In this document: one piece after another, positions 2,541-49,795 of the stretch
Position numbering within the stretch: position 1 is the first letter of the stretch
Layout: the number at the start of each line of letters is the position of its first letter
Source: Gammaproteobacteria bacterium
GTDB taxonomy: Bacteria > Pseudomonadota > Gammaproteobacteria > SZUA-152
Reading direction: 5' to 3'
Length of the DNA: 64,000 nucleotides
Assembly: GCA_021647705.1 (NCBI GenBank)
Contig: JAKIUF010000001.1
Span: 124,001 to 188,000, forward strand
Program-made: the position numbers and the translations under genes
The notes under the pieces: generated by a model
The model's database searches: none
What the model was told of the DNA's origin: nothing
Seen by the model: only the letters and a program-made list of their open reading frames with translations

Positions 2541-3722
2541 ATGGAAAAAGAAGCCGATTTTTTGGCGATATACAAAGGCAACGTCACAAGAATGGTGCAA
2601 ACAACGGACAAGCAGGAGCGAAAGCCGATAAAAATTGCTTTGCTCGGAATGGATGAACGATCTGTCACCAGGATGGCAACTATCTTCAAGGTGGTGTTCA
2701 AAGAACGCTGCGAAGTTGCATCGGGGGAACAGGCCGATCTCGCCATTGTTGATCTGGATGGTAAAACAGAGGCATGGGTATTGTTTCGTCAGCAATTCCC
2801 AAAATTGTCTGCCATTGTCCTCTCTGAATCGCCATCCAGCGCTGAAGGCGCTGTTTATATCAGCAAACCTGCCAAGTTAAGTTTGTTGTGGGAATCTATT
2901 TTACGACTGGTGATTGGTTTGCCATCGCCAGCCGAATTTGCAGCAAGATATGAGCGGGCATCCACTGAGCTGGAAAGTGATACCGTTGCGAGCAGTGTCA
3001 GTAATATTGCGCAAAGCACGACACCAAAACCCACGCAGTCCACGGATGCACAGGTGGACACAGCAAACAGTTTTAATCCGGATGATTATTTATTAGGACA
3101 CTTGCTTACCAGCTTGAAAGAATGTGCCGGGCGTGAATGCAGTATCAGTATGCAGCACGGGAAGGATCAACAACTGGTGATTTTTCCGCATAGCGATCAA
3201 GTATTGTGTCGTTTAGACAATGCTCAACTTGAGCAATTGAGCGCCGCCAGGAACAATAAAAAATTTACGCTTGAAATTAACCATGATGCGGGGAGCAGTG
3301 AAGCCGCCGCATATGAAGTCGATGGGGTGCAATTCATCTCCATTGATTACCTGCTTTGGGATTTAACTCAGCGTACTGCTCGTGGTCGAGTGCCAGTGGG
3401 TACCGATTTGTCCAGGCTGTTTTATTTACGCTGTTGGCCGAATTTTCCCCGTTTGCCACCGATACCACATGGCATGCGCATCGCCTCTTTGTGGGTGGGT
3501 GAGCCGCGTACCCTGGATGATATTGCCATGAGTCTGGACATCGAAAAGGCCGAGGTATACTCATTTTACAGTGCTGCTGTTGCTACAGGCCTTGCCGGGC
3601 CAGCAAAACGCCAAGTGGATGGATTGATTGAACCGCGTAGTGTCACTGGTAGCGCCACTAAAAGGAATGTTGCGAAGCGCGATATACGCGATGCTATTTT
3701 GCGTCATATCGATAATAGCTGA
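2541..3722 (+). CDS. Receiver-like regulator with C-terminal helical (winged-helix-like) region
   Basis: 393 residues. Residues about 28-135 resemble a response-regulator receiver (KIALLGMDERSVTRM, then LAIVDLDG in the position of the phospho-acceptor strand, then YISKP like the conserved K-P loop). Residues about 150-190 are a Ser/Thr/Gln-rich linker. The C-terminal part (about 200-370) ends in FYLRCWPNFPRLPPIPHG followed by a helix-turn-helix-like stretch with TLDDIAMSLDIEKAEVYSFY. I infer a signalling adaptor rather than a classical DNA-binding regulator. Removing the IS4-bounded insertion would place it just before the Roadblock genes at 11.07 and 11.68 kb, so they may form one module. 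The start is uncertain: ATG 2541 has no clear ribosome site and ATG 2592 is possible. Confidence 0.6.
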   Translation: MEKEADFLAIYKGNVTRMVQTTDKQERKPIKIALLGMDERSVTRMATIFKVVFKERCEVASGEQADLAIVDLDGKTEAWVLFRQQFPKLSAIVLSESPSSAEGAVYISKPAKLSLLWESILRLVIGLPSPAEFAARYERASTELESDTVASSVSNIAQSTTPKPTQSTDAQVDTANSFNPDDYLLGHLLTSLKECAGRECSISMQHGKDQQLVIFPHSDQVLCRLDNAQLEQLSAARNNKKFTLEINHDAGSSEAAAYEVDGVQFISIDYLLWDLTQRTARGRVPVGTDLSRLFYLRCWPNFPRLPPIPHGMRIASLWVGEPRTLDDIAMSLDIEKAEVYSFYSAAVATGLAGPAKRQVDGLIEPRSVTGSATKRNVAKRDIRDAILRHIDNS

Positions 3723-3781
3723 TTAGCCGTTTATTCAGAGCAAGTTGTAGAGATGAATGTGTTTGAATATATATCTGATGC

Positions 3782-5105
3782 CACTAGTGTCCCAACGTTA
3801 CCCAATCAGACAAGTATAACTAACTGTATTCACAACAAAAACCACCAAATCATGAAGGGCACCGACTTGAACCCTATGAGAAGCTCTAAAATCTGTGGAT
3901 TTTCCAAGATTTTGGAGGTCACTCATGTATATGGGCAAACTTGTTTTCGCGCAGCTAATGGCACACCTTCCAATGAAAACTTTTCGCTGCTGCGTTCAGC
4001 GATACGCCGGAAATCACAAGGTCAAATCCTTCCGTTGTCTCGACCAATTCCTCTGCATGGCTTTCGCGCAATTGACTTACAGAGAGAGCCTCAGAGAGAC
4101 AGAAATCTGTCTTCGGTCACAAAGCGAGAAGCTCTACCACATGGGTATACGTGGTGGGATCTCTCGCAACACGCTCTCCAATGCCAACAAGGTACGAGAT
4201 TGGAAAATCTACGCCGACTTCGCTCAAGCGCTGATCAAGATCGCCAGGCCTCTTTATGCAGAGGAGGACTTGGGACTCGAACTCGACAACACCGTTTACG
4301 CGCTCGATGCCTCCACCATCGATCTCTGTCTATCCGTTTTTCCATGGGCGCTGTTTCTCAGCGGTCAAACTCCACACCTTGCTCGATCTGCGTGGCAATA
4401 TTCCCACCTTCATCCCTATATCGGATGGCAAGCTTCACGACGTCAACGTGCTCGATATTCTGATACCAGAGCCGGGTGCCTTCTACATCATGGATCGGGG
4501 CTACCTGGATTTTAGAAGGCTTTACAGTATGGCTCAGGCCGGCGCATTTTTTGTCATCCGAGCCAAGCGCAATACCGTATACAAACGTCGCTACTCCCAT
4601 CCTGTCACCTCCGCAGCGGGAGCCAGTGGTGTGAAATGCGACCAGACCATCGTGCTGACAGGTGTCAATGCAAAGGACGATTAGCCTCAACCGTTACGAC
4701 GGGTCAAATACCACGACAGCACCACCGGTAAAACCTTCAACTTTCTCACCAACAACTTTGCCATACCGGCTCAGACAGTCGCCAACCTATATCGACACCG
4801 CTGGCAGGTAGCGCTATTTTTCAAGTGGATCAAACAGCACCTGAGAATCAAATCTTTTTTCGGAACCACCGAGAATGCGATGAAGAGTCAAACCTGGATT
4901 GCGATCTCGGTTTACGTGCTCGTGGCCATCACCAAAAAGCGACTCAGGCTCGAAACAGAACTCTACACAATTCTACAGATTTTAAGCCTGACCCTTTTCG
5001 AGAAAACATCATTAGATCAGTTGTTTATGAAACCCGATTGCAAATAGACCGGGACAAAATGGATAACCAATTGAATTTGTTCGATTTAACGTTGGGACGC
5101 TAGTG
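3782..5105 (+). mobile_element. IS4-family insertion sequence, full length but decayed
   Basis: About 1324 bases with terminal inverted repeats CACTAGTGTCCCAACGTTA (left) and the complement of CACTAGCGTCCCAACGTTA (right), 18 of 19 matching. It holds a single transposase frame that is interrupted. Its right-hand 212 bases are repeated almost exactly at 10746-10958. No direct repeat flanks this copy on its own; its left flank pairs with the flank of the distant right fragment. Confidence 0.85.
3925..5047 (+). pseudogene. IS4-family transposase, broken
   Basis: The reading starts MYMGKLVFAQLMAHLP and shows the first catalytic Asp region (ALDASTIDLCLS). It then shifts frame near 4345-4365, continues with AVKLHTLLDLRGN and FYIMDRGYLDFRRL, meets an in-frame TAG at 4682-4684 where a Tyr codon is expected, and goes on to the C-terminal signature. 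In that signature (YRHRWQVALFFKWIK) the position that carries the catalytic Glu in the IS4 Y-2-R-3-E-6-K motif is Ala (GCG for GAG). There are therefore three separate inactivating changes. Confidence 0.85.
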
Positions 5106-5130
5106 GAATTATGTGTATAGTCTTTTGTTT

Positions 5131-5280
5131 TAGTTTTTGGCCTTTTTGACGTTATTTGAGAAAGGCTCGCTGTGTAATGATTTAAGGATAATAATATGCC
5201 CCAATTAAACTTGGTCCGCCGATTGGTCGCGTTCCCGCTGGCACTGCTTGTATTGGTTTTGCAAGGTTGTGGCGGTGGAA
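5131..5280 (+). repeat. Leader repeat A: upstream region and signal-peptide segment of first lipoprotein
   Basis: The upstream stretch TTTTTGGCCTTTTTGACG, the ATTTGAGAAAGG stretch, the ribosome site, the first codons (MPQLNL) and the lipobox segment ending TTGCAAGGTTGTGGCGGTGG are repeated at 8023-8180 before the second lipoprotein. The signal-peptide middle is less conserved. Confidence 0.8.
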
Positions 5281-7997
5281 GCATAAATGAGCCAACTACT
5301 ACGAATGCCTCTGGAGTTGATTGTAGTAGCGGCATATATACATATGCGAGATTAAATAATGGTGTCACCGGCGATGAACTGTATAAGATTAATGGTGTTG
5401 GTGAATGCACACGCGTGGTCAAGGATTTTTCAAAAATTGCCGGAAGCAGCATTTATGATGATCGTTATTTATGGGGGCTGGGTAACGGAACTGTCATTTA
5501 CCGTGCTGATGACGGGATTCATGGCCATGAGCTGTGGAGTAGTAATGGTGGCCCTGCTTCCTTGATCCGGGATATGGCAGTAGATGGAGACTTAAGAATT
5601 AAATCCTCTGCTATCGCACGAGGCGAACAGGGGCAGCAGGGTTATGCGCTGGTGGATAACAGCCTGCTTTATTTTGTTGTTGATGATCGACAGACAAACC
5701 TAGAGCATCTTTGGGTATCAGATGGTAGTGATGCTGGTACAGTCAAGCTCCACACAGCCGACGATATTCGCAATGTGATCGCTTATGATGGACGAGTATA
5801 TTTTGCGACTAAAACCAGTGATGTATCAACCATATGGTCAACAGGAGGTACGCCAGTAGATACATCTGAATTCCTGTCCGACAGTATGACAATGCCGACT
5901 GTTGCCAATGGCCAGCTGTACTTCATGCGCGATACCAGTTTATACCGAACAAATGGTACGAGCGATGGAACCTTTCTCGTTGGCACAATCACAAGTACGT
6001 TTCGCCCTCGCATGGTGGCTGTGAATAACATGCTCGTGATTTCAGCGAATACAGTGAATGGCAAAGAGCTGTTTGCTTCTGATGGAACTGCCGCGCCTGT
6101 ATCTATTGGCATTGTAGGCACTGCGACAGATAGATCTGTCTATTTCTTTAAAGGTAATGTTGTAGGAAACAGAATTTTCATAAGTGTAATAAATAGTACC
6201 GGTGATGCTAGTTCGATCTGGGTTACCGGTGGAACTGCTGAGTCAACAGTGAGCTTGAGTGGGATCAATCTCGAAATTGGTAGAGGAGCTGGGTTGTATA
6301 CAGAAGCCAATAACCGTGTTTATTTTCGAAACCGGGATGGCGTTAATGGATTCGAATTGTGGTCATGGGATGGCGCTATTCTGAACATGATTGACCTGGA
6401 TCCGGATAGCTTCAGTTATCCCGATGACTTGATTGCATTCAACGGTAACCTGTACTTCACTGCTTTTGATAGTACATCGGGAAGGCAACTCTGGATGCAT
6501 GATGGTACCGATGCGATTAAAGTCAGCGATAACTTAACTTCTTTTAACCATGCCTCAATTGGTCCTTTGGTTGTTTATAAAAATGAAATCTATTTTATGG
6601 GTGAAGATGATAAGGGTCGTGAATTATGGAAGTCTAATGGTGAGGTTGGAAATGTCCAGAGGATTACGGACCTGAATCCTTTGGGGCCATCCCTGTATCA
6701 ATATCAGGATATTATGATTTATGACAATCTTTTGTATTTCATTGCCTCAGATGGGGTTCATGGTAGTGAGGTGTGGCGATCAGATGGCACAGTAGGCAAT
6801 ACTGAAATGGTTGCTGATGTTAGCCAGGTCAATGTCGGCAGTGGGCGGCCGTCGCTATTTTCACACGCTGGTGTGGATTACTTTATTGTTAATGATCGTG
6901 TTAGTACTGGCCTGTGGCGAATTGATCAATCGGATGCCACACTGATTAAGCGTATTCCGGGCTTAGGCCGGGTGGGCAATATGACTAGTTTAGGGGGCTA
7001 TGTATATTTTGATATTGAAGGGTCTGATGAACAGGACGGTATCTGGCGAACGGATGGTAGCGAGCTGAATACAACGCGCATTCTCGATTTCAATACGATG
7101 AACCCTGTGGGCAGGTCAAATGTAACTGGCATGGTAAATTATCTGGGTGATATTTATTTTCTTGCCAATAGGGCTGGTTTCGGTTTTGGATTATGGAAAT
7201 TAAATATTGGGGTGGGCACTGCAGAAGAGGTTCATGTTATTCATTCTGATGTTGTTACCAGTAACTCAGGTTTTGGGCTTCAGGTGCATTTGAATAAAAT
7301 GTTCTTTAGCGCAGATGATGGTGTTAATGGGATGGAAGCCTGGGTAAGTGATGGTACCACCACGGAATTGTTATTTGATGCCAATCTAGCTGGTGGTAGC
7401 GGGCCAGGAATTCTATTCGAGCTAAAAAGCAAGATCTATTTCACTGCATGGAATGGGTCGGCTAGAGAGCTGTGGGTGAGCGATGGTCTGGTTGCTAATA
7501 CGACATTGGTAGTAACAGATTTTGATCCCAGAGGGGCAGAGATTATCGACGATACGGCTTATTTTTTTGGTAAAGATAAGCTATCAGGTGAGAGCGGCCT
7601 CTATGCATTTAGCGGTACGACATTTAGTTTGATGGTCAATCTTATATCTACACCATCTGGCTATAATATTACCCAGTACCAGAATAAGATCTATTTTTTA
7701 TCAGAAGACCTGGATAATCCTGCTACTCACTCCGCATTATGGGTGACTGATGGGAGTGTGATCGGCACAAGAGTCGTGAAATCTGTACCGTTTGATTTAG
7801 GTGGAAGTGAGAGTGATGGCGGCGAAGCCGAAGATCTGGTGACTGCAGGAGGCCTCATGTACTTCGTCAATTATGACAATGTTAACGGCGAAGAGTTGTG
7901 GGTAAGTGATGGCACTGGTACTGGAACAAGTTTGCTTGCAGACCTTAACCCAGGTATTGCCGATGGAGCTGCTTCAAACCCGCTGGCTATGCATTAA
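5196..7997 (+). CDS. Large lipoprotein made of ELWxSDGT-type repeats
   Basis: 933 residues. The N-terminus MPQLNLVRRLVAFPLALLVLVLQGCGGG is a lipoprotein signal with lipobox LQGC, so lipid-anchored surface or outer-membrane location is likely. The rest is built of repeats of about 45-50 residues around ELWVSDGT, ELWKSNGE, EVWRSDGT and LYFIASDG, alternating a beta-strand YFxxxD motif with GxELW, as in predicted beta-propeller repeat proteins. Function is unknown; a binding or adhesion role is inference. ATG 5196 follows AAGGA and matches the start of the paralogous leader at 8089. The next gene begins about 90 bases downstream. The gene is cargo of the IS4-bounded insertion and is somewhat AT-richer to the eye than the chromosomal genes. 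Confidence 0.8.
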   Translation: MPQLNLVRRLVAFPLALLVLVLQGCGGGSINEPTTTNASGVDCSSGIYTYARLNNGVTGDELYKINGVGECTRVVKDFSKIAGSSIYDDRYLWGLGNGTVIYRADDGIHGHELWSSNGGPASLIRDMAVDGDLRIKSSAIARGEQGQQGYALVDNSLLYFVVDDRQTNLEHLWVSDGSDAGTVKLHTADDIRNVIAYDGRVYFATKTSDVSTIWSTGGTPVDTSEFLSDSMTMPTVANGQLYFMRDTSLYRTNGTSDGTFLVGTITSTFRPRMVAVNNMLVISANTVNGKELFASDGTAAPVSIGIVGTATDRSVYFFKGNVVGNRIFISVINSTGDASSIWVTGGTAESTVSLSGINLEIGRGAGLYTEANNRVYFRNRDGVNGFELWSWDGAILNMIDLDPDSFSYPDDLIAFNGNLYFTAFDSTSGRQLWMHDGTDAIKVSDNLTSFNHASIGPLVVYKNEIYFMGEDDKGRELWKSNGEVGNVQRITDLNPLGPSLYQYQDIMIYDNLLYFIASDGVHGSEVWRSDGTVGNTEMVADVSQVNVGSGRPSLFSHAGVDYFIVNDRVSTGLWRIDQSDATLIKRIPGLGRVGNMTSLGGYVYFDIEGSDEQDGIWRTDGSELNTTRILDFNTMNPVGRSNVTGMVNYLGDIYFLANRAGFGFGLWKLNIGVGTAEEVHVIHSDVVTSNSGFGLQVHLNKMFFSADDGVNGMEAWVSDGTTTELLFDANLAGGSGPGILFELKSKIYFTAWNGSARELWVSDGLVANTTLVVTDFDPRGAEIIDDTAYFFGKDKLSGESGLYAFSGTTFSLMVNLISTPSGYNITQYQNKIYFLSEDLDNPATHSALWVTDGSVIGTRVVKSVPFDLGGSESDGGEAEDLVTAGGLMYFVNYDNVNGEELWVSDGTGTGTSLLADLNPGIADGAASNPLAMH

Positions 7998-8022
7998 GTG
8001 GTTGTGTGTAGAGCTCTTCATT

Positions 8023-8180
8023 CTAATTTTTGGCCTTTTTTGAAGTTATTTGAGAAAGGTCAGTTGTGTAATGATGAAGGATAATAATATGCCCCAATTA
8101 AACTTGGCTTCACGACTGGCGATGTTCCTGCTGATTATGCTGGTACTGATTGTATTGGTTTTGCAAGGTTGTGGCGGTGG
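8023..8180 (+). repeat. Leader repeat B: upstream region and signal-peptide segment of second lipoprotein
   Basis: Second copy of the leader described at 5131-5280: TTTTTGGCC, the ATTTGAGAAAGG stretch, AAGGATAATAATATGCCCCA and the lipobox segment are near-identical. Similarity stops soon after the Gly run of the mature N-terminus. Duplication therefore covers expression and export signals but not the mature body. Confidence 0.8.
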
Positions 8181-10221
8181 CGGTGGTGAAGGTTCATCAA
8201 CCGGTTATACGGTTAGTGTTACAGTTACTGGCTTAAACGGAGCAGGCTTAGCCTTACAGAATAATAACTCTGATGATCTTGCTGTTAATGAAAATGGCAA
8301 TTTCACCTTTAGCACAAAAAATCCTGATCAAAGCACTTATAACATTACGGTCAATACTCAACCGAAATATCAGACTTGCATCGTTAATAACGCTAGCGGA
8401 ACAATTTCATTGGGAAATATTACTAATGTAGAAGTTGTATGTAGGTCTAACGCGAGCCTTAATCTTATTGGTGAGTTAATTGGTGGTATTCCTTCAGACA
8501 TTGTTATACAGGGTGATTTCGCTTACCTGGCTGCTCAAGCTGGACTCTATATCGTAAATATATCTGATCCTACTAATCCAACATTTGTTTCAACATATGA
8601 CACCCCCGACAATGCAGTAGATGTAAGTATTGCTGGTGACTATGCATTTGTAGCAAATCGGTTTGGTCATATACAAATTATTAACATTAGCAACCCTGCA
8701 TTCCCGACTGAAGCCAGCTCTTTTGATGTGCCGGGCAATAGTGCATCCGCATTAACGGTTAATGGGGATTATTTATACATAACAGCCTCGTATACAGGTG
8801 GTATACAAATAGTTGATATCAGCAACCCAGCTTCGCCCAGCACTGTAGGGGCATATATAGTGACAAATGACTCACCTCGAGGTGTAAGTATAAATGGTAA
8901 CTACGCGTATGTTACCTATGGGGTGGACGGCTTACGTATTATTGACATTAGCAATCCTGCATTGCCTGTTTTGACAGGCTCAATCGATACTCCGGGTCAG
9001 GCTGTTAGTGCTACGGTAAGTGGCAGCTATGCTTATGTGGCGGATAGTGGAGGTGGCCTACGCATTATCGATATCAGTGACCCGGTCTTACCAGTAGAGG
9101 TAGGTTTTTTTGATACGGCTGACCAGGTTGCAGGTGTAGTGGTTATAGGAAGCAGCGTCTATATAGCAGATAGGCGTGGTGGCATGCGAATTATCAATGT
9201 GAGTACGCCCTCTACACCAACCGAGATTGGTGCATATGATACGCCTGGCAATGGTTCTGGAATAGCAATTAGCGGTACATATGCTTATATAGCCGATGGC
9301 TTTGCCGGATTGCGGGTCATTGATATCAGTACAGCTGCCGTACCTACTGAAGTTGGTTTTTATAATGTACCTGCGACTGCCAGTGGCATTGATTCAAATG
9401 GTCATTATTCATATGTTGCCGATGGTTTTGGTGGGCTTCGAATTTTGGATATCAGTGCTCCTGCGGCACCCGTTGAAGTGGGTTTTTATATAACCTCAAA
9501 TTTCGCACGTAAAGTGACCGTTAATGGTAGTTATGCTTATGTGAGCATGCAGGGCGGCAAGTTTAGCATCATTGATATTAGCGACCCCGCGTCCCCTACA
9601 GAGATTGGTTTTAATGATTTACTTGGCACGCCCTATGGAACTGCAATAAGTGGGAGTTATGCTTATGTTGCAGATCGTAGTCGGGGTTTGGTTATTCTTG
9701 ACATAAGTAATCCTGCATTACCAATAATCGTGAGTGTTTATGATACACCGGGGCAGTTGAGGGATGTAGCTGTCGCTGGGAATTACGCTTATGCTGCAGA
9801 CCTTAATTATGGATTACGAATTTTTGATGTCACTGAACGTACTTCACCGGTAGAAGTCGGTTTTTATGAAACCCCAGGTAGCCCATCTGGTGTGGCTGTC
9901 GTTGGAAATACAGTCTATGTGGCCAATTCGCAAGCTGGATTACGGGTTATAGATATTACTAGTCCAGACTTGCCTACAGAACTTGGTTTTTACGATACGC
10001 CAGGAAATGTTTCTAGTGTGCAAATCAGCGGGAATTACGCATACATTGCTGATCATCGTAGTGGTGTGCGCGTGATTGATATTAGCTCCCCGACATCATT
10101 GCAGGAAGTTGCGGCTTTTGACACGACAGGAGAAGTATTTCAGGTGGTCTTCAGCAATGGTTACATAATTGTTGCGGACAGTGGTTCGGGCATAGGGGTG
10201 CTTGAGCTTGTTAATCCTTAG
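8089..10221 (+). CDS. Lipoprotein with LVIVD-type beta-propeller repeats
   Basis: 710 residues from ATG 8089. The longer frame begins at 8050, but 8089 keeps the MPQLNL start shared with the upstream paralogous leader and has AAGGA before it. Signal peptide and lipobox (LQGC) are followed by a Gly run and a small N-terminal domain (residues about 35-125). About 13 repeats of roughly 42 residues follow, with the pattern GNYAYVAD, GLRIIDISNPA, PTEVGFYDTPG. This matches the LVIVD repeat family, expected to fold as beta-propellers. Lipid-anchored and extracytoplasmic location is inferred; the ligand is unknown. Apart from the leader it does not resemble its neighbour at 5196. Confidence 0.82.
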   Translation: MPQLNLASRLAMFLLIMLVLIVLVLQGCGGGGGEGSSTGYTVSVTVTGLNGAGLALQNNNSDDLAVNENGNFTFSTKNPDQSTYNITVNTQPKYQTCIVNNASGTISLGNITNVEVVCRSNASLNLIGELIGGIPSDIVIQGDFAYLAAQAGLYIVNISDPTNPTFVSTYDTPDNAVDVSIAGDYAFVANRFGHIQIINISNPAFPTEASSFDVPGNSASALTVNGDYLYITASYTGGIQIVDISNPASPSTVGAYIVTNDSPRGVSINGNYAYVTYGVDGLRIIDISNPALPVLTGSIDTPGQAVSATVSGSYAYVADSGGGLRIIDISDPVLPVEVGFFDTADQVAGVVVIGSSVYIADRRGGMRIINVSTPSTPTEIGAYDTPGNGSGIAISGTYAYIADGFAGLRVIDISTAAVPTEVGFYNVPATASGIDSNGHYSYVADGFGGLRILDISAPAAPVEVGFYITSNFARKVTVNGSYAYVSMQGGKFSIIDISDPASPTEIGFNDLLGTPYGTAISGSYAYVADRSRGLVILDISNPALPIIVSVYDTPGQLRDVAVAGNYAYAADLNYGLRIFDVTERTSPVEVGFYETPGSPSGVAVVGNTVYVANSQAGLRVIDITSPDLPTELGFYDTPGNVSSVQISGNYAYIADHRSGVRVIDISSPTSLQEVAAFDTTGEVFQVVFSNGYIIVADSGSGIGVLELVNP

Positions 10222-10334
10222 TTATAAAGCTTGGTTCTTCGTGGCGGCTAATGCGGTCGGAGGTTCATGAGAATGATTCTTATGATCTGAAGTAGTAATC
10301 TCACTGTTTACTTGTCCAGGAAAAGGAGTTTCCG

Positions 10335-10745
10335 ATGCCAAGAAAGCCAAGGATGTATTTGTTTGGTGTGCCAAGCACACATTGTGCAGCGTGGTGTTCA
10401 CCTCTTAATGGCACCTAGTGATGAATGTGGTATATCCCGAGTGATGCAGCGCGTGGGTAACCGTTATGTGCAATACGTCAACAAGCGGTATGGACGTACA
10501 GGTATTTTTATGGAAAGGACGACATAAGGTGAGTTTGATTGATGCTGAAGGCTATCTGCCCGCCTGTTACCGATATGTTGAACTGAATCCTGTGCATGCT
10601 GGAATGGTGACTAGTTCAGTCGATTATCGTTGGTCAAGCTATAGACATAACGCGGAGGGCGAGTCATCAGTCATCGTGACAGTGCATGGTTTTTTCTTGG
10701 CGATCTCACCGAATGTTGCTGAGCGACGACATCACAGTTCGAAAT
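10335..10745 (+). pseudogene. REP-associated tyrosine transposase (RAYT) remnant
   Basis: ATG 10335 follows AAAAGGAG. The reading starts PRKPRMYL, shifts frame, then gives HIVQRG fused directly to VHLLMAP, so about 50 central residues, including the region of the catalytic His pair, are missing. It resumes with GISRVMQRVGNRYVQYVN, RTGIFM, a second frame change, then SLIDAEGYLPACYRYVELNP and DYRWSSYRHNA. These are typical of TnpA_REP/RAYT proteins. The 3' end is cut by the IS4 right-end fragment at 10746. It cannot be functional. Confidence 0.8.
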
Positions 10746-10958
10746 CTGGATTGCGATCTCGGTTTACGTGCTCGTGGCCATCACCAAAAAAGCGACTCAG
10801 GCTCGAAACAGAACTCTACACAATTCTACAGATTTTAAGCCTGACCCTTTTCGAGAAAACACTATTAGATCAGTTGCTTATGAAACCCGATTGCAAATAG
10901 ACCGGGACAAAATGGATAACCAATTGAATTTGTTCGATTTAACGTTGGGACGCTAGTG
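10746..10958 (+). mobile_element. IS4 right-end fragment (213 bases)
   Basis: Almost identical to 4894-5105 of the full IS4 copy: one extra A in a poly-A run and a few substitutions. It encodes only the transposase C-terminus and keeps a complete right terminal repeat. Immediately outside lies ATCTGATGC, the direct repeat that pairs with 3773-3781. Confidence 0.88.
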
Positions 10959-11069
10959 ATCTGATGCTATTTTCTGAAGAATGTATTTGGGCTGCCGCTA
11001 ATATCAACACAGAGAGAAATATATTAACAGCGTAAGTGACAGTGCGTGCGATTAAGGAGGGCCGGGAGC

Positions 11070-11453
11070 ATGACAAATCTTCAAAAAGAAAATATTGATA
11101 AGATCATTCGTCCCATACTTAGGACGTTAAATGGAAAATCACCGGAGATGGAAGCATCGGCGGTGATGTCTCGTGATGGCATAAGCATTGCCTCGGTATT
11201 GGGTGATGGTATTGACCCGGATCGACTGGGTGCCATGTGCGCGGCATTATTGGGTTTGGCTGACCGGACGGCAAATGAGCTAGCGCGCGGTGAATTGAAA
11301 CTGGTCTTGCTGCATGGCAGCAAAGGTGTGTTGCTGTTGGTGCATGTTGGCACCACACATGTGTTGGCATTGTCGGCCAAGCCTGGTATCAATCTCGGTA
11401 TGGTTTTGATGGAAGCCAAAAAAACCGCAGCGATGTTGGCAACAACAATGTAA
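11070..11453 (+). CDS. Roadblock/LC7-domain protein (MglB-like), first copy
   Basis: 127 residues. The fold pattern is that of Roadblock/LC7 regulators of small Ras-like GTPases: N-terminal helix (NIDKIIRPILRTL), EASAVMSRDGISIAS beta-hairpin, long helix LGAMCAALLGLADRTANEL, then KLVLLHGSKGVLLLVHVG and a C-terminal helix. ATG 11070 is chosen over GTG 11046 because AAGGAGG lies 8 bases before it. A second Roadblock gene follows 230 bases downstream. No MglA-type GTPase is visible in the window, so the partner must be elsewhere. The locus lies directly after the IS4-bounded insertion. Confidence 0.8.
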   Translation: MTNLQKENIDKIIRPILRTLNGKSPEMEASAVMSRDGISIASVLGDGIDPDRLGAMCAALLGLADRTANELARGELKLVLLHGSKGVLLLVHVGTTHVLALSAKPGINLGMVLMEAKKTAAMLATTM

Positions 11454-21192: not shown

Positions 21193-21256
21193 AACAGGCT
21201 CCCTGATACGTTGGTGTGTTTCCAGTCAGAGATTCTAACCTGTTATCGTGAGTGAT

Positions 21257-21408
21257 TTAAATGTGTTTTAAGCACTTAAAGCACGCTGCTTTTAAAATCA
21301 TCGAGTATTTAACGCAGAGGTCGCAGAGACACAGAGGACGCAGAGAAAAACACTAAACACTCTGTGCCCTCTCTGTGTCTCTGCGATCTCTGTGTTTATA
21401 ACACGCCA
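21257..21408. repeat. GCAGAG palindromic repeat, copy 3
   Basis: Core 21311-21397: AACGCAGAGGTCGCAGAGAC and the inverted CTGTGTCTCTGCGATCTCTG around AAAACACTAAACAC. The left flank (TTTTAAGCACTTAAAGC...TTTAAAATCATCGAGTATTT) and right flank (TATAACACGCCA) match flanks of copies 4 and 5, so the mobile or copied unit is longer than the palindrome. Confidence 0.85.
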
Positions 21409-21710
21409 CTGAGCAATGCCACGACAACCTGATTTACATTTAAGTAGGTGAGTATCAAGACGAATACATTGCTGCGATTCATCAGGGGCAGGGAGGAGAC
21501 TACGAGCCTATGAAGCTCGTTTTTCTGAAGTTTTGAAGGTTTCGGAGGCCAGACATTATTCGTTTATAAACTGGCCCTGTATCCGCCTTAATTATAGGTG
21601 AATTAGTTTTGGCTGAAATCATGACCGACTTTAGTCATTTTCGGGCGGACACTACAATAAGGATTTGGGAATTGCTTTTGACTTGCTTAATTGTATAGAC
21701 TGCGCCGAGT
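21409..21710. other. Gene-poor leader before the efflux locus
   Basis: About 300 bases with no convincing reading frame. I see no clear dyad or MerR/CzcR-type operator. TTGACT at about 21679 has no well-spaced -10 partner. Confidence 0.4.
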
Positions 21711-28000: not shown

Positions 28001-28148
28001 GGTGCAACGTCCTCTTGCCACGGTGGTTATCGGTGGAATTATCTCATCGACGTTATTGACCCTGGTGGTACTGCCTGCACTGTATCGATTGGTACATGGT
28101 CGCACGATAGTTCAAAAACAGATGGGTGCAGTTCCTTTGAAACGATGA
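25011..28148 (+). CDS. czcA: Heavy-metal efflux RND pump (CzcA/HME family)
   Basis: 1045 residues, normal for HME-RND. Twelve membrane helices and two large periplasmic loops, with typical stretches PDITNVQVVINTEAPGYTPLEAEQRVSFP and GLGEIFMFTV. The helix-4 signature reads DFGLIIDGAVIIVEN. In the family classification this DFG-x3-DGA-x3-VEN type goes with divalent Zn/Co/Cd/Ni exporters, not with the Cu/Ag (CusA) group. ATG 25011 has a strong AAAGGAGG. It is the last gene of the operon, and a MITE-like element begins 3 bases after its stop. Confidence 0.93.
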   Translation: MLEAIIKFALERRGLVMALVLMVMGLGVWKFTQLPIDAVPDITNVQVVINTEAPGYTPLEAEQRVSFPVETAMTGLPKLSYTRSVSRYGLSQVTVVFEEGTDIYFARQLVGERLSTAKGDLPPSLEPTLGPIATGLGEIFMFTVDAEPGATNSDGSLITPMDLRSTHDWIIRPQLMRVAGVAEINPIGGFKKEILVAPEPAKLLAYQMGYDEIVKAIQNNNNNRGVGFIEHNGAQWLMRVPGQASTLSDLGNIVIRQHQGIPVRIKDVASVSLGKELRSGAATQNGREVVMSTVFMLIGENSRTVANDIAIKLEEIKSTLPDGITVTAVYNRTTLVDKTLETVQKNLLEGALLVIVVLFLFLGNVRAAILTAAVIPIAMLMTITGMVQTKTSANLMSLGALDFGLIIDGAVIIVENCIRRLSQNYRKEGLPLSERLTIVFEATREVIRPALFGVFIITAVYIPIFALSGVEGKMFHPMAITVIIALVSAMILSITFIPAGVALLFKKPIKEKKSKVVQATTFLYKPVLILSLKFRWVVVTLAIALVVGSTFLIPKLGSEFVPNLDEGDIAMHALRIPGTSLTEAIHLQKILEAEIKTLPEVERIFSKIGTAEVATDAVPPSVADNFIILKPRDEWPDPSKTKAQFVAELETLVTPIPGNRYEFLQPIQMRFNELISGVRAEVAIKVFGDDFDQLIALGNQIEEVIGNVPGAADVSVEQTTGLPVMTIEPKREAMARYGLSIVQLQDLLATALGGSVANQLYEGDRRSDIVVRLPEHLRTDVDGLSGLPIMLAGGNYIPLKEVAELKLVMGYSQVYRENGKRRVVVAANVRGRDLGSFVQDVQRAIKDKVEVPAGYWVEYGGTYQKLQSATQRLSIVVPITLLLVIGLLVMALGSIKDAAIIFSGVPLALTGGIAALLLRDIPFSISAAVGFIALSGIAVLNGLVMVSFIRDLRLHGQMLHEAIIEGALTRLRPVLMTALVAALGFIPMALNTGIGSEVQRPLATVVIGGIISSTLLTLVVLPALYRLVHGRTIVQKQMGAVPLKR

Positions 28149-28150
28149 TG

Positions 28151-28337
28151 ACTTAGGGACGCGCATGTAATAACTTCTCGGTTTAGCGCCCGGATTTAGT
28201 GCGTATTCGTTCGTTCTGATTGAACAAAAGTGCAGGAATAGTCGTTCTATTTCGAGCTTTTGTGATTGAAGAACGGGCGAATACGGGCTGAAGCCGGGCT
28301 GCAAAACCGGAAGTTATTGCATGCGCGTTCCTTAAGT
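28151..28337. repeat. 187-bp MITE-like long inverted repeat
   Basis: The left end ACTTAGGGACGCGCATGTAA is complementary to the right end TTGCATGCGCGTTCCTTAAGT, and the match continues imperfectly for about 90 bases per arm (TAACTTCTCGGTTT, CGTATTCGTTCGTTCT, AACAAAAGTGC). The centre is GGAATAGTCGTTCTATTT, nearly the same as the centre of the element at 59411-59572. It holds no protein. It may act as a terminator for the efflux operon. Confidence 0.8.
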
Positions 28338-28433
28338 AAACTCAATGAGTTGCAGAGGTTGCCCGCTTTTTACCAAGTGTTGACGTCAACATATCATTTT
28401 TACAGACCGATTAAACGGTCATGTAAAGGTCAA

Positions 28434-28570
28434 TCAAGCGCTGGAAATACGTTATTTTTAACAATCACTGGGCATTTAACACAGAGGTCGCAGAGACACA
28501 GAGGCGTAGCGTTTTTCGTGTTTTTCTCTGCGACCTTTGCGTCTCTGTGGGCTCTGTGTTCATAACACGT
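28434..28570. repeat. GCAGAG palindromic repeat, copy 4
   Basis: Core 28478-28560: AACACAGAGGTCGCAGAGAC and the inverted TCTGCGACCTTTGCG...CTGTGTT. The left flank TCAAGCGCTGGAAATACG...AATCACTGGGCATTT is the complement of the flank seen in copies 5 and 6. The right flank is CATAACACGTCA as in copy 3. Confidence 0.85.
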
Positions 28571-49615: not shown

Positions 49616-49654
49616 CGGGTGTTGCGCACTTGAATATTGCCGTGGTGCTGACAA

Positions 49655-49795
49655 GTGGTGTGTTATAAACGTAGAGGTCGCAAAGACGCAGAGGCCGCAA
49701 AGTTTTTAATGTTTTTCTCTGCGTCCTTTGCGCCTCTGCGACCTCTGCGTTAAATACTCAGTGATTCTTAAAACAGATATTTTTAGCGCTTAATT
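49655..49795. repeat. GCAGAG palindromic repeat, copy 5 (reverse orientation)
   Basis: Core about 49668-49752: AACGTAGAGGTCGCAAAGAC and the inverted GCGTCCTTTGCGCCTCTGCG. The right flank AAATACTCAGTGATTCTTAAAACAGATATTTTTAGCGCTT is nearly identical to that of copy 6 and is the complement of the left flank of copy 4. The left flank GTGTTATAAAC matches the complement of copies 3 and 4. Confidence 0.87.

Follow-up and report, generated by a model that had tools for sequence, protein, structure and literature searches.

A probable remnant of an IS4-family composite transposon carrying two putative lipoproteins in a gammaproteobacterial genome

In the mobile insertion cassettes related to IS231, IS4-type ends surround passenger genes and the transposase is absent. 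The Tn6330 (ISApl1-mcr-1) derivatives have a full upstream IS and keep 42 or 90 bp from the end of the downstream one (PMC5821093). The duplications made by ISApl1 are 2 bp long and hard to tell from serendipity; at least three were accepted in that paper after comparison with empty sites, and the competence of the stub-ended forms was left to experiment (PMC5821093). The IS4 subgroup IS4Sa is characterised in Table 1 of a survey of the family by ends of the form CA------T, a length of 1150-1750 bp and duplications of 8-10 bp (PMC2266710).

Here we describe a block of comparable design, found in a gammaproteobacterial genome within a 64 kb window (the whole stretch of DNA that was analysed, to which all positions without a contig name refer). 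We put at roughly 80% the probability that this block is what is left of a composite transposon of the IS4 family, IS4Sa-like and inserted as a single piece. Two copies of one IS bracket the cargo, the right copy being reduced to 217 bp, and their outer ends are intact; a duplication surrounds the whole unit, and relatives have an empty site that is one base shorter. A functional transposase is lacking, which bars the description as an active transposon but not as a transposon remnant. The features are collected in Table 1.

Table 1. Features of the IS4-ended unit and its borders, in window coordinates
Feature	Position	Strand	Evidence
Left 9-bp target duplication, ATCTGATGC	3773..3781	+	Identical to 10959-10967
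Full-length IS4-family copy, 1324 bp, dead transposase	3782..5105	+	Profile matches to DUF4372 and DDE_Tnp_1; transpos_IS4_1 below cutoff on fragments
First copy of shared leader: upstream, ribosome-binding region, start and signal-like peptide of lipoprotein 1	5106..5278	+	Aligns to 7997-8180
ELWxxDGT-repeat putative lipoprotein 1, 933 aa, intact frame	5196..7997	+	TIGR04534 331 bits; PF16472 49.6 bits
Second copy of shared leader	7998..8180	+	Alignment to first copy
LVIVD-repeat, choice-of-anchor B putative lipoprotein 2, 710 aa, intact frame	8089..10221	+	PF08309 441.7 bits; TIGR04312 129.5 bits
Decayed RAYT (REP-associated tyrosine transposase) remnant, frame breaks and stops	10336..10741	+	Weak models only
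3' stub of second IS copy, intact right end, same orientation as left copy	10742..10958	+	98% to 4890-5105
Right 9-bp target duplication, ATCTGATGC	10959..10967	+	

Ends of the unit and the empty site

The IS4-ended unit extends from 3782 to 10958 and measures 7177 bp. Its left outer end (3782-3800, CACTAGTGTCCCAACGTTA) stands directly after the left repeat, its right outer end (10940-10958, TAACGTTGGGACGCTAGTG) is followed at once by ATCTGATGC, and the two ends are 95% complementary over 19 nt. The initial annotation had proposed a perfect 9-bp target duplication around the block, and this proved correct, the 9-mer lying directly outside both intact outer ends. On the plus strand of the window it occurs at these two places only, and the minus strand holds no copy. 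No repeat brackets the left IS copy alone, which is followed by GAATTATGT, or the right stub alone, which is preceded by other sequence.

Six related copies of the IS, taken as pairs from three other genomes (G144, G378 and G298), all have perfect repeats of 9 bp, not 8 or 10, so that 9 bp is the habit of this IS group. Two further single copies were also found, one in G037 with 8 of 9 positions matching and one in G019 with no repeat. The targets of the six copies are unrelated sequences. A preference for a particular target, or two independent insertions into a favoured sequence, was considered as the cause of the 9-mers here and rejected, as the relatives' targets differ.

Three congeners (G007, G004 and G003) align through the insertion site in MAFFT and do not have the unit. 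At the site G007 reads GAATATAT-TCTGATGCTATTTTC where the joined flanks of the window read GAATATATATCTGATGCTATTTTC, and G004 and G003 both read TCTGATGG. The single copy in these congeners is thus TCTGATGC or TCTGATGG, 8 bases in which the A of the 9-mer is missing, and that of G004 and G003 is like the window's repeat at 7 of the 8. Since both repeats in the window carry the A, the simplest account is that it was in the target already, and the extra base probably stood there before the insertion. The empty site proposed earlier as a check, with one copy of the repeat, therefore exists in three aligned congeners, where the literal 9-mer is one base short, and a fourth can be read across the site by eye. 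The fourth congener, G008, is uninterrupted and without the unit, although it is diverged and has a longer gap, with the neighbouring genes about 0.4 kb apart. These genomes come from a search of 11 other genomes of the genus with the right flank of the unit; seven of them gave some match and four none, and the matches in G001 and G005 were weak or partial. In G002, unrelated DNA lies to the left of the site-matching point on contig C108 and continues to the contig end; this is uninformative about the empty site and may reflect a different insertion or a rearrangement. A tblastn search found neither lipoprotein near the site in G007, G008, G004 or G003.

The insertion target was a short gap between a gene for a 393-aa protein, for which no Pfam match was found, and a roadblock/LC7 gene. 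The unit now stands between the 393-aa gene and two roadblock/LC7 genes, its close neighbours in G007 (window 3722-11070), and the insertion may have cut a transcript common to these genes. The window flanks are 92.3% and 93.5% identical to those of G007. The two IS 3' parts differ by about 2%, compared with the 6.5-7.7% that separates the flanks from G007; for this reason the IS pair seems to be younger than the split from G007, and the insertion seems to have come after it.

The IS copies and the manner of insertion

The transposase of the left copy has decayed at three places when set against the open frames of three relatives. The frame changes near 4356-4366, TAG stands in frame at 4682-4684, and at 4811-4813 the YREK motif, Y(2)R(3)E(6)K in the IS4 family, has Ala instead of Glu (YRHRWQVALFFKWIK here, YRYRWQVELFFKWIK in the relatives); the motif is complete in all three aligned relatives. 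The frameshift, stop and catalytic substitution noticed earlier were thereby all confirmed. With the curated IS4 transposase model NF033592 the two fragments of the broken frame score 52 and 80.4 bits against a cutoff of 115. We read the loss of the YREK Glu as decay of an IS4 member, not as exclusion from the family. The right-hand stub had been given as 213 bases; its intact right end was verified, but it measures 217 nt, with four substitutions and one 1-base indel relative to 4890-5105. No other full IS copy and no intact transposase was found in this genome, which is 96% complete, and its IS pieces besides the full copy are the stub in Table 1 and, on contig C32, a further 3' stub (80%). 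A plasmid search with the IS as query returned 33 records, the best with 67.8% identity over 80% of the IS.

There is good support for a single insertion at this site by an IS4 transposase, and the simplest reading, to which we give good credence, is that the cargo arrived in the same event. The transposase, from the then-intact left copy or supplied in trans, would have brought the full copy's left end together with the second copy's right end and inserted the whole stretch by cut-and-paste between the 393-aa gene and the roadblock/LC7 gene, with duplication of 9 bp. Decay of the transposase and reduction of the second IS to its last 217 bases would have followed later, or partly preceded the insertion, and the outcome would be a unit immobile on its own in which both lipoprotein genes are intact. 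Because the transposase has decayed and the second IS is reduced, the unit should no longer move by itself. We infer its movement as a unit from this one insertion, no second copy having been found in its own genome or in the 11 other genomes of the genus. Across 369 genomes of the class, its own included, 16 others match the unit over about 30 to 180 bases only; at most two candidates were scored per genome in this search, which makes absence weak evidence.

The initial annotation held that the block had moved as one unit although its right IS is a stub. The single insertion stands, but what the duplication dates is the insertion; the truncation may have come afterwards, by deletion in a right IS that was still whole when the block arrived. 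The opposite order, in which the right arm was already a stub and the stub's own right end was used, is a tentative variant of the same reading. The right end of the stub is intact, and there are Tn6330 derivatives with stubs of 42-90 bp and repeats, at least three of which were judged legitimate against empty sites (PMC5821093), but the adjoining RAYT remnant gives no date for the truncation.

It is also conceivable, although unlikely, that a solo IS inserted first with its 9-bp repeat and that a circle or replicon carrying the lipoproteins and a 3' piece of the IS then recombined with it homologously. Such a history would leave an identical final sequence, and we judge the 217-bp common 3' segment to be long enough for it. 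It requires, however, two events and a suitable circle, and no solo IS occupies the site in the three alignable relatives, and we consider it less likely than insertion of a composite element. That the flanking 9-mers are a coincidence, in a vertically inherited region with two unrelated IS relics, deserves hardly any credence, as the empty site is indeed not letter-perfect but the chance of a given 9-mer abutting both unit ends would be about 4e-6 (4^-9), three relatives run uninterrupted across the site, no cargo was found in the other genomes of the genus and the repeat equals in length the 9 bp of the IS group.

The cargo, its leader and related segments

Both cargo proteins begin with a signal-like segment that ends, by eye, in LQGC, which we take to be a lipobox and hence a mark of putative lipoproteins. 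The matches to TIGR04534 and TIGR04312 compare with model cutoffs of 65 and 100 bits, respectively. Lipoprotein 2 contains 13 LVIVD stretches (PF08309) and also a beta-propeller Pfam match (PF09826, 45.4 bits, cutoff 22.4). The single-sequence structure models of the two proteins (mean pLDDT 42.2 and 31.6) are too poor for use; of the outer-surface propeller proteins first described, two repeat proteins remain, with a putative propeller fold and a putative outer-surface location. A sequence search of the PDB gave two weak matches for lipoprotein 2 and no match for lipoprotein 1. LVIVD repeats feature in published work on tandem repeats in proteins of the cell surface (PMC2447325), and among open-access papers none on ELWxxDGT was found. 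The RAYT remnant scores 23.9 bits with NF047646 (cutoff 80) and 13.5 bits with Y1_Tnp (cutoff 23).

The intact frames of the cargo hint at maintenance by selection. If the frameshift and the stop in the transposase both arose after the insertion, and if lesions struck the cargo at an equal rate, the probability of finding none in 1643 codons would be about 2e-4. At the DNA level the 11 other genomes of the genus hold no match to the cargo but two RAYT pieces in G011. Protein matches to lipoprotein 1 occur in 7 of 96 relatives' genomes (its own included) and in 26 of the 369 class genomes; the best-scoring show 30-43% identity over parts, with short pieces up to 56%, and no donor was found in either set. 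Lipoprotein 2 has protein matches in 38 of the 96 genomes, with 23-52% identity over parts among the matches listed.

The two lipoprotein genes share their 5' DNA. The stretch 5102-5278, just past the IS end, aligns with 7997-8180, just past the stop of lipoprotein 1, and the bodies behind these two leaders belong to different repeat families. The same leader is present in a genome of another family (G222, contig C50) at 81% over 96 bases (E 1.6e-18), with a weaker second copy; there the leaders sit on two lipoprotein-like genes whose bodies are alike mutually and unlike either protein of the window. Judged from these alignments, the reuse of a leader on unrelated bodies would be the most unusual point of the region and a more unusual lead than the transposon itself. 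It might even be that the lipoproteins are part of a pool of surface proteins exchanged horizontally, in which a common DNA leader (ribosome-binding region and signal peptide) precedes unrelated bodies, and that IS4- and RAYT/REP-linked units spread these genes between families. This is a speculative and rather improbable proposal, but if it were true the transposon would be one carrier within a surface-protein exchange system.

The further IS 3' stub of this genome (G000) on contig C32 was considered as a twin of the unit and rejected; by eye it looks like the relic of an IS within a fragment of a repeat-protein gene, next to a RAYT end. The surrounding segment (C32, 26577-29576) is 97.8% identical over about 3 kb to part of contig C190 of G201, a genome of a different family, and contains the IS4 3' stub, a repeat protein of 653/655 aa and RAYT pieces. 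One border of the match coincides with the end of a REP-like hairpin (fold -21.1 kcal/mol), whereas in the other direction the match continues until the G201 contig stops. When 20 kb of the window is compared with G201, the three longest matches have 65-77% identity, and the rest of the G201 contig has no match in the genus but 43 bases in G011. A transfer of the segment between families is likely; alternatively, the identity may stem from a stray contig among those assembled for G201. Elsewhere in the window, the roughly 190 bases at 28148-28340 form a near-perfect, MITE-like hairpin (fold -119.5 kcal/mol) with about 30 matches listed in each of G007 and G201. A second hairpin family (CACAGAG-type) lies at 21255-21432, 28456-28560 and 49654-49793, and several more copies occur in G007 and G201.

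Relationship to described elements

Unlike the IS231-related mobile insertion cassettes, the unit described here contains the relic of a transposase along with two pieces of an IS. Its terminal bases at 3782 (CACTAGTGT) agree with the end pattern CA------T of IS4Sa, and its IS length of 1324 bp and duplication of 9 bp fall within the ranges of that subgroup. The likeness extends to the YREK motif in the three aligned relatives, the difference being that its Glu is gone from the left copy here (compared with the subgroup as tabulated in PMC2266710). The IS copy thus appears to fit IS4Sa by its ends, length and duplication.

A search of open-access papers found no composite transposon with both a surface protein cargo and a target site duplication. 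The element had been called unusual of its kind, and this applies to the cargo but not to the architecture, which is already described for the Tn6330/ISApl1 derivatives; the novelty lies in the unusual cargo. As an IS-borne gain of large repeat proteins, it concerns a lineage of Gammaproteobacteria represented here by metagenome assemblies. With the Tn6330 derivatives the unit shares a full upstream IS, a cargo, a short downstream stub with an intact right end and target duplications (PMC5821093). Those derivatives, however, belong to the IS30 family and have 2-bp duplications and a resistance cargo (PMC5821093), whereas here there is an IS4-family member with 9 bp, lipoproteins and a dead transposase. 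With a 9-bp duplication and an empty site, the stub-ended composite insertion is easier to recognise here than in the ISApl1 examples, whose duplications have 2 bp.
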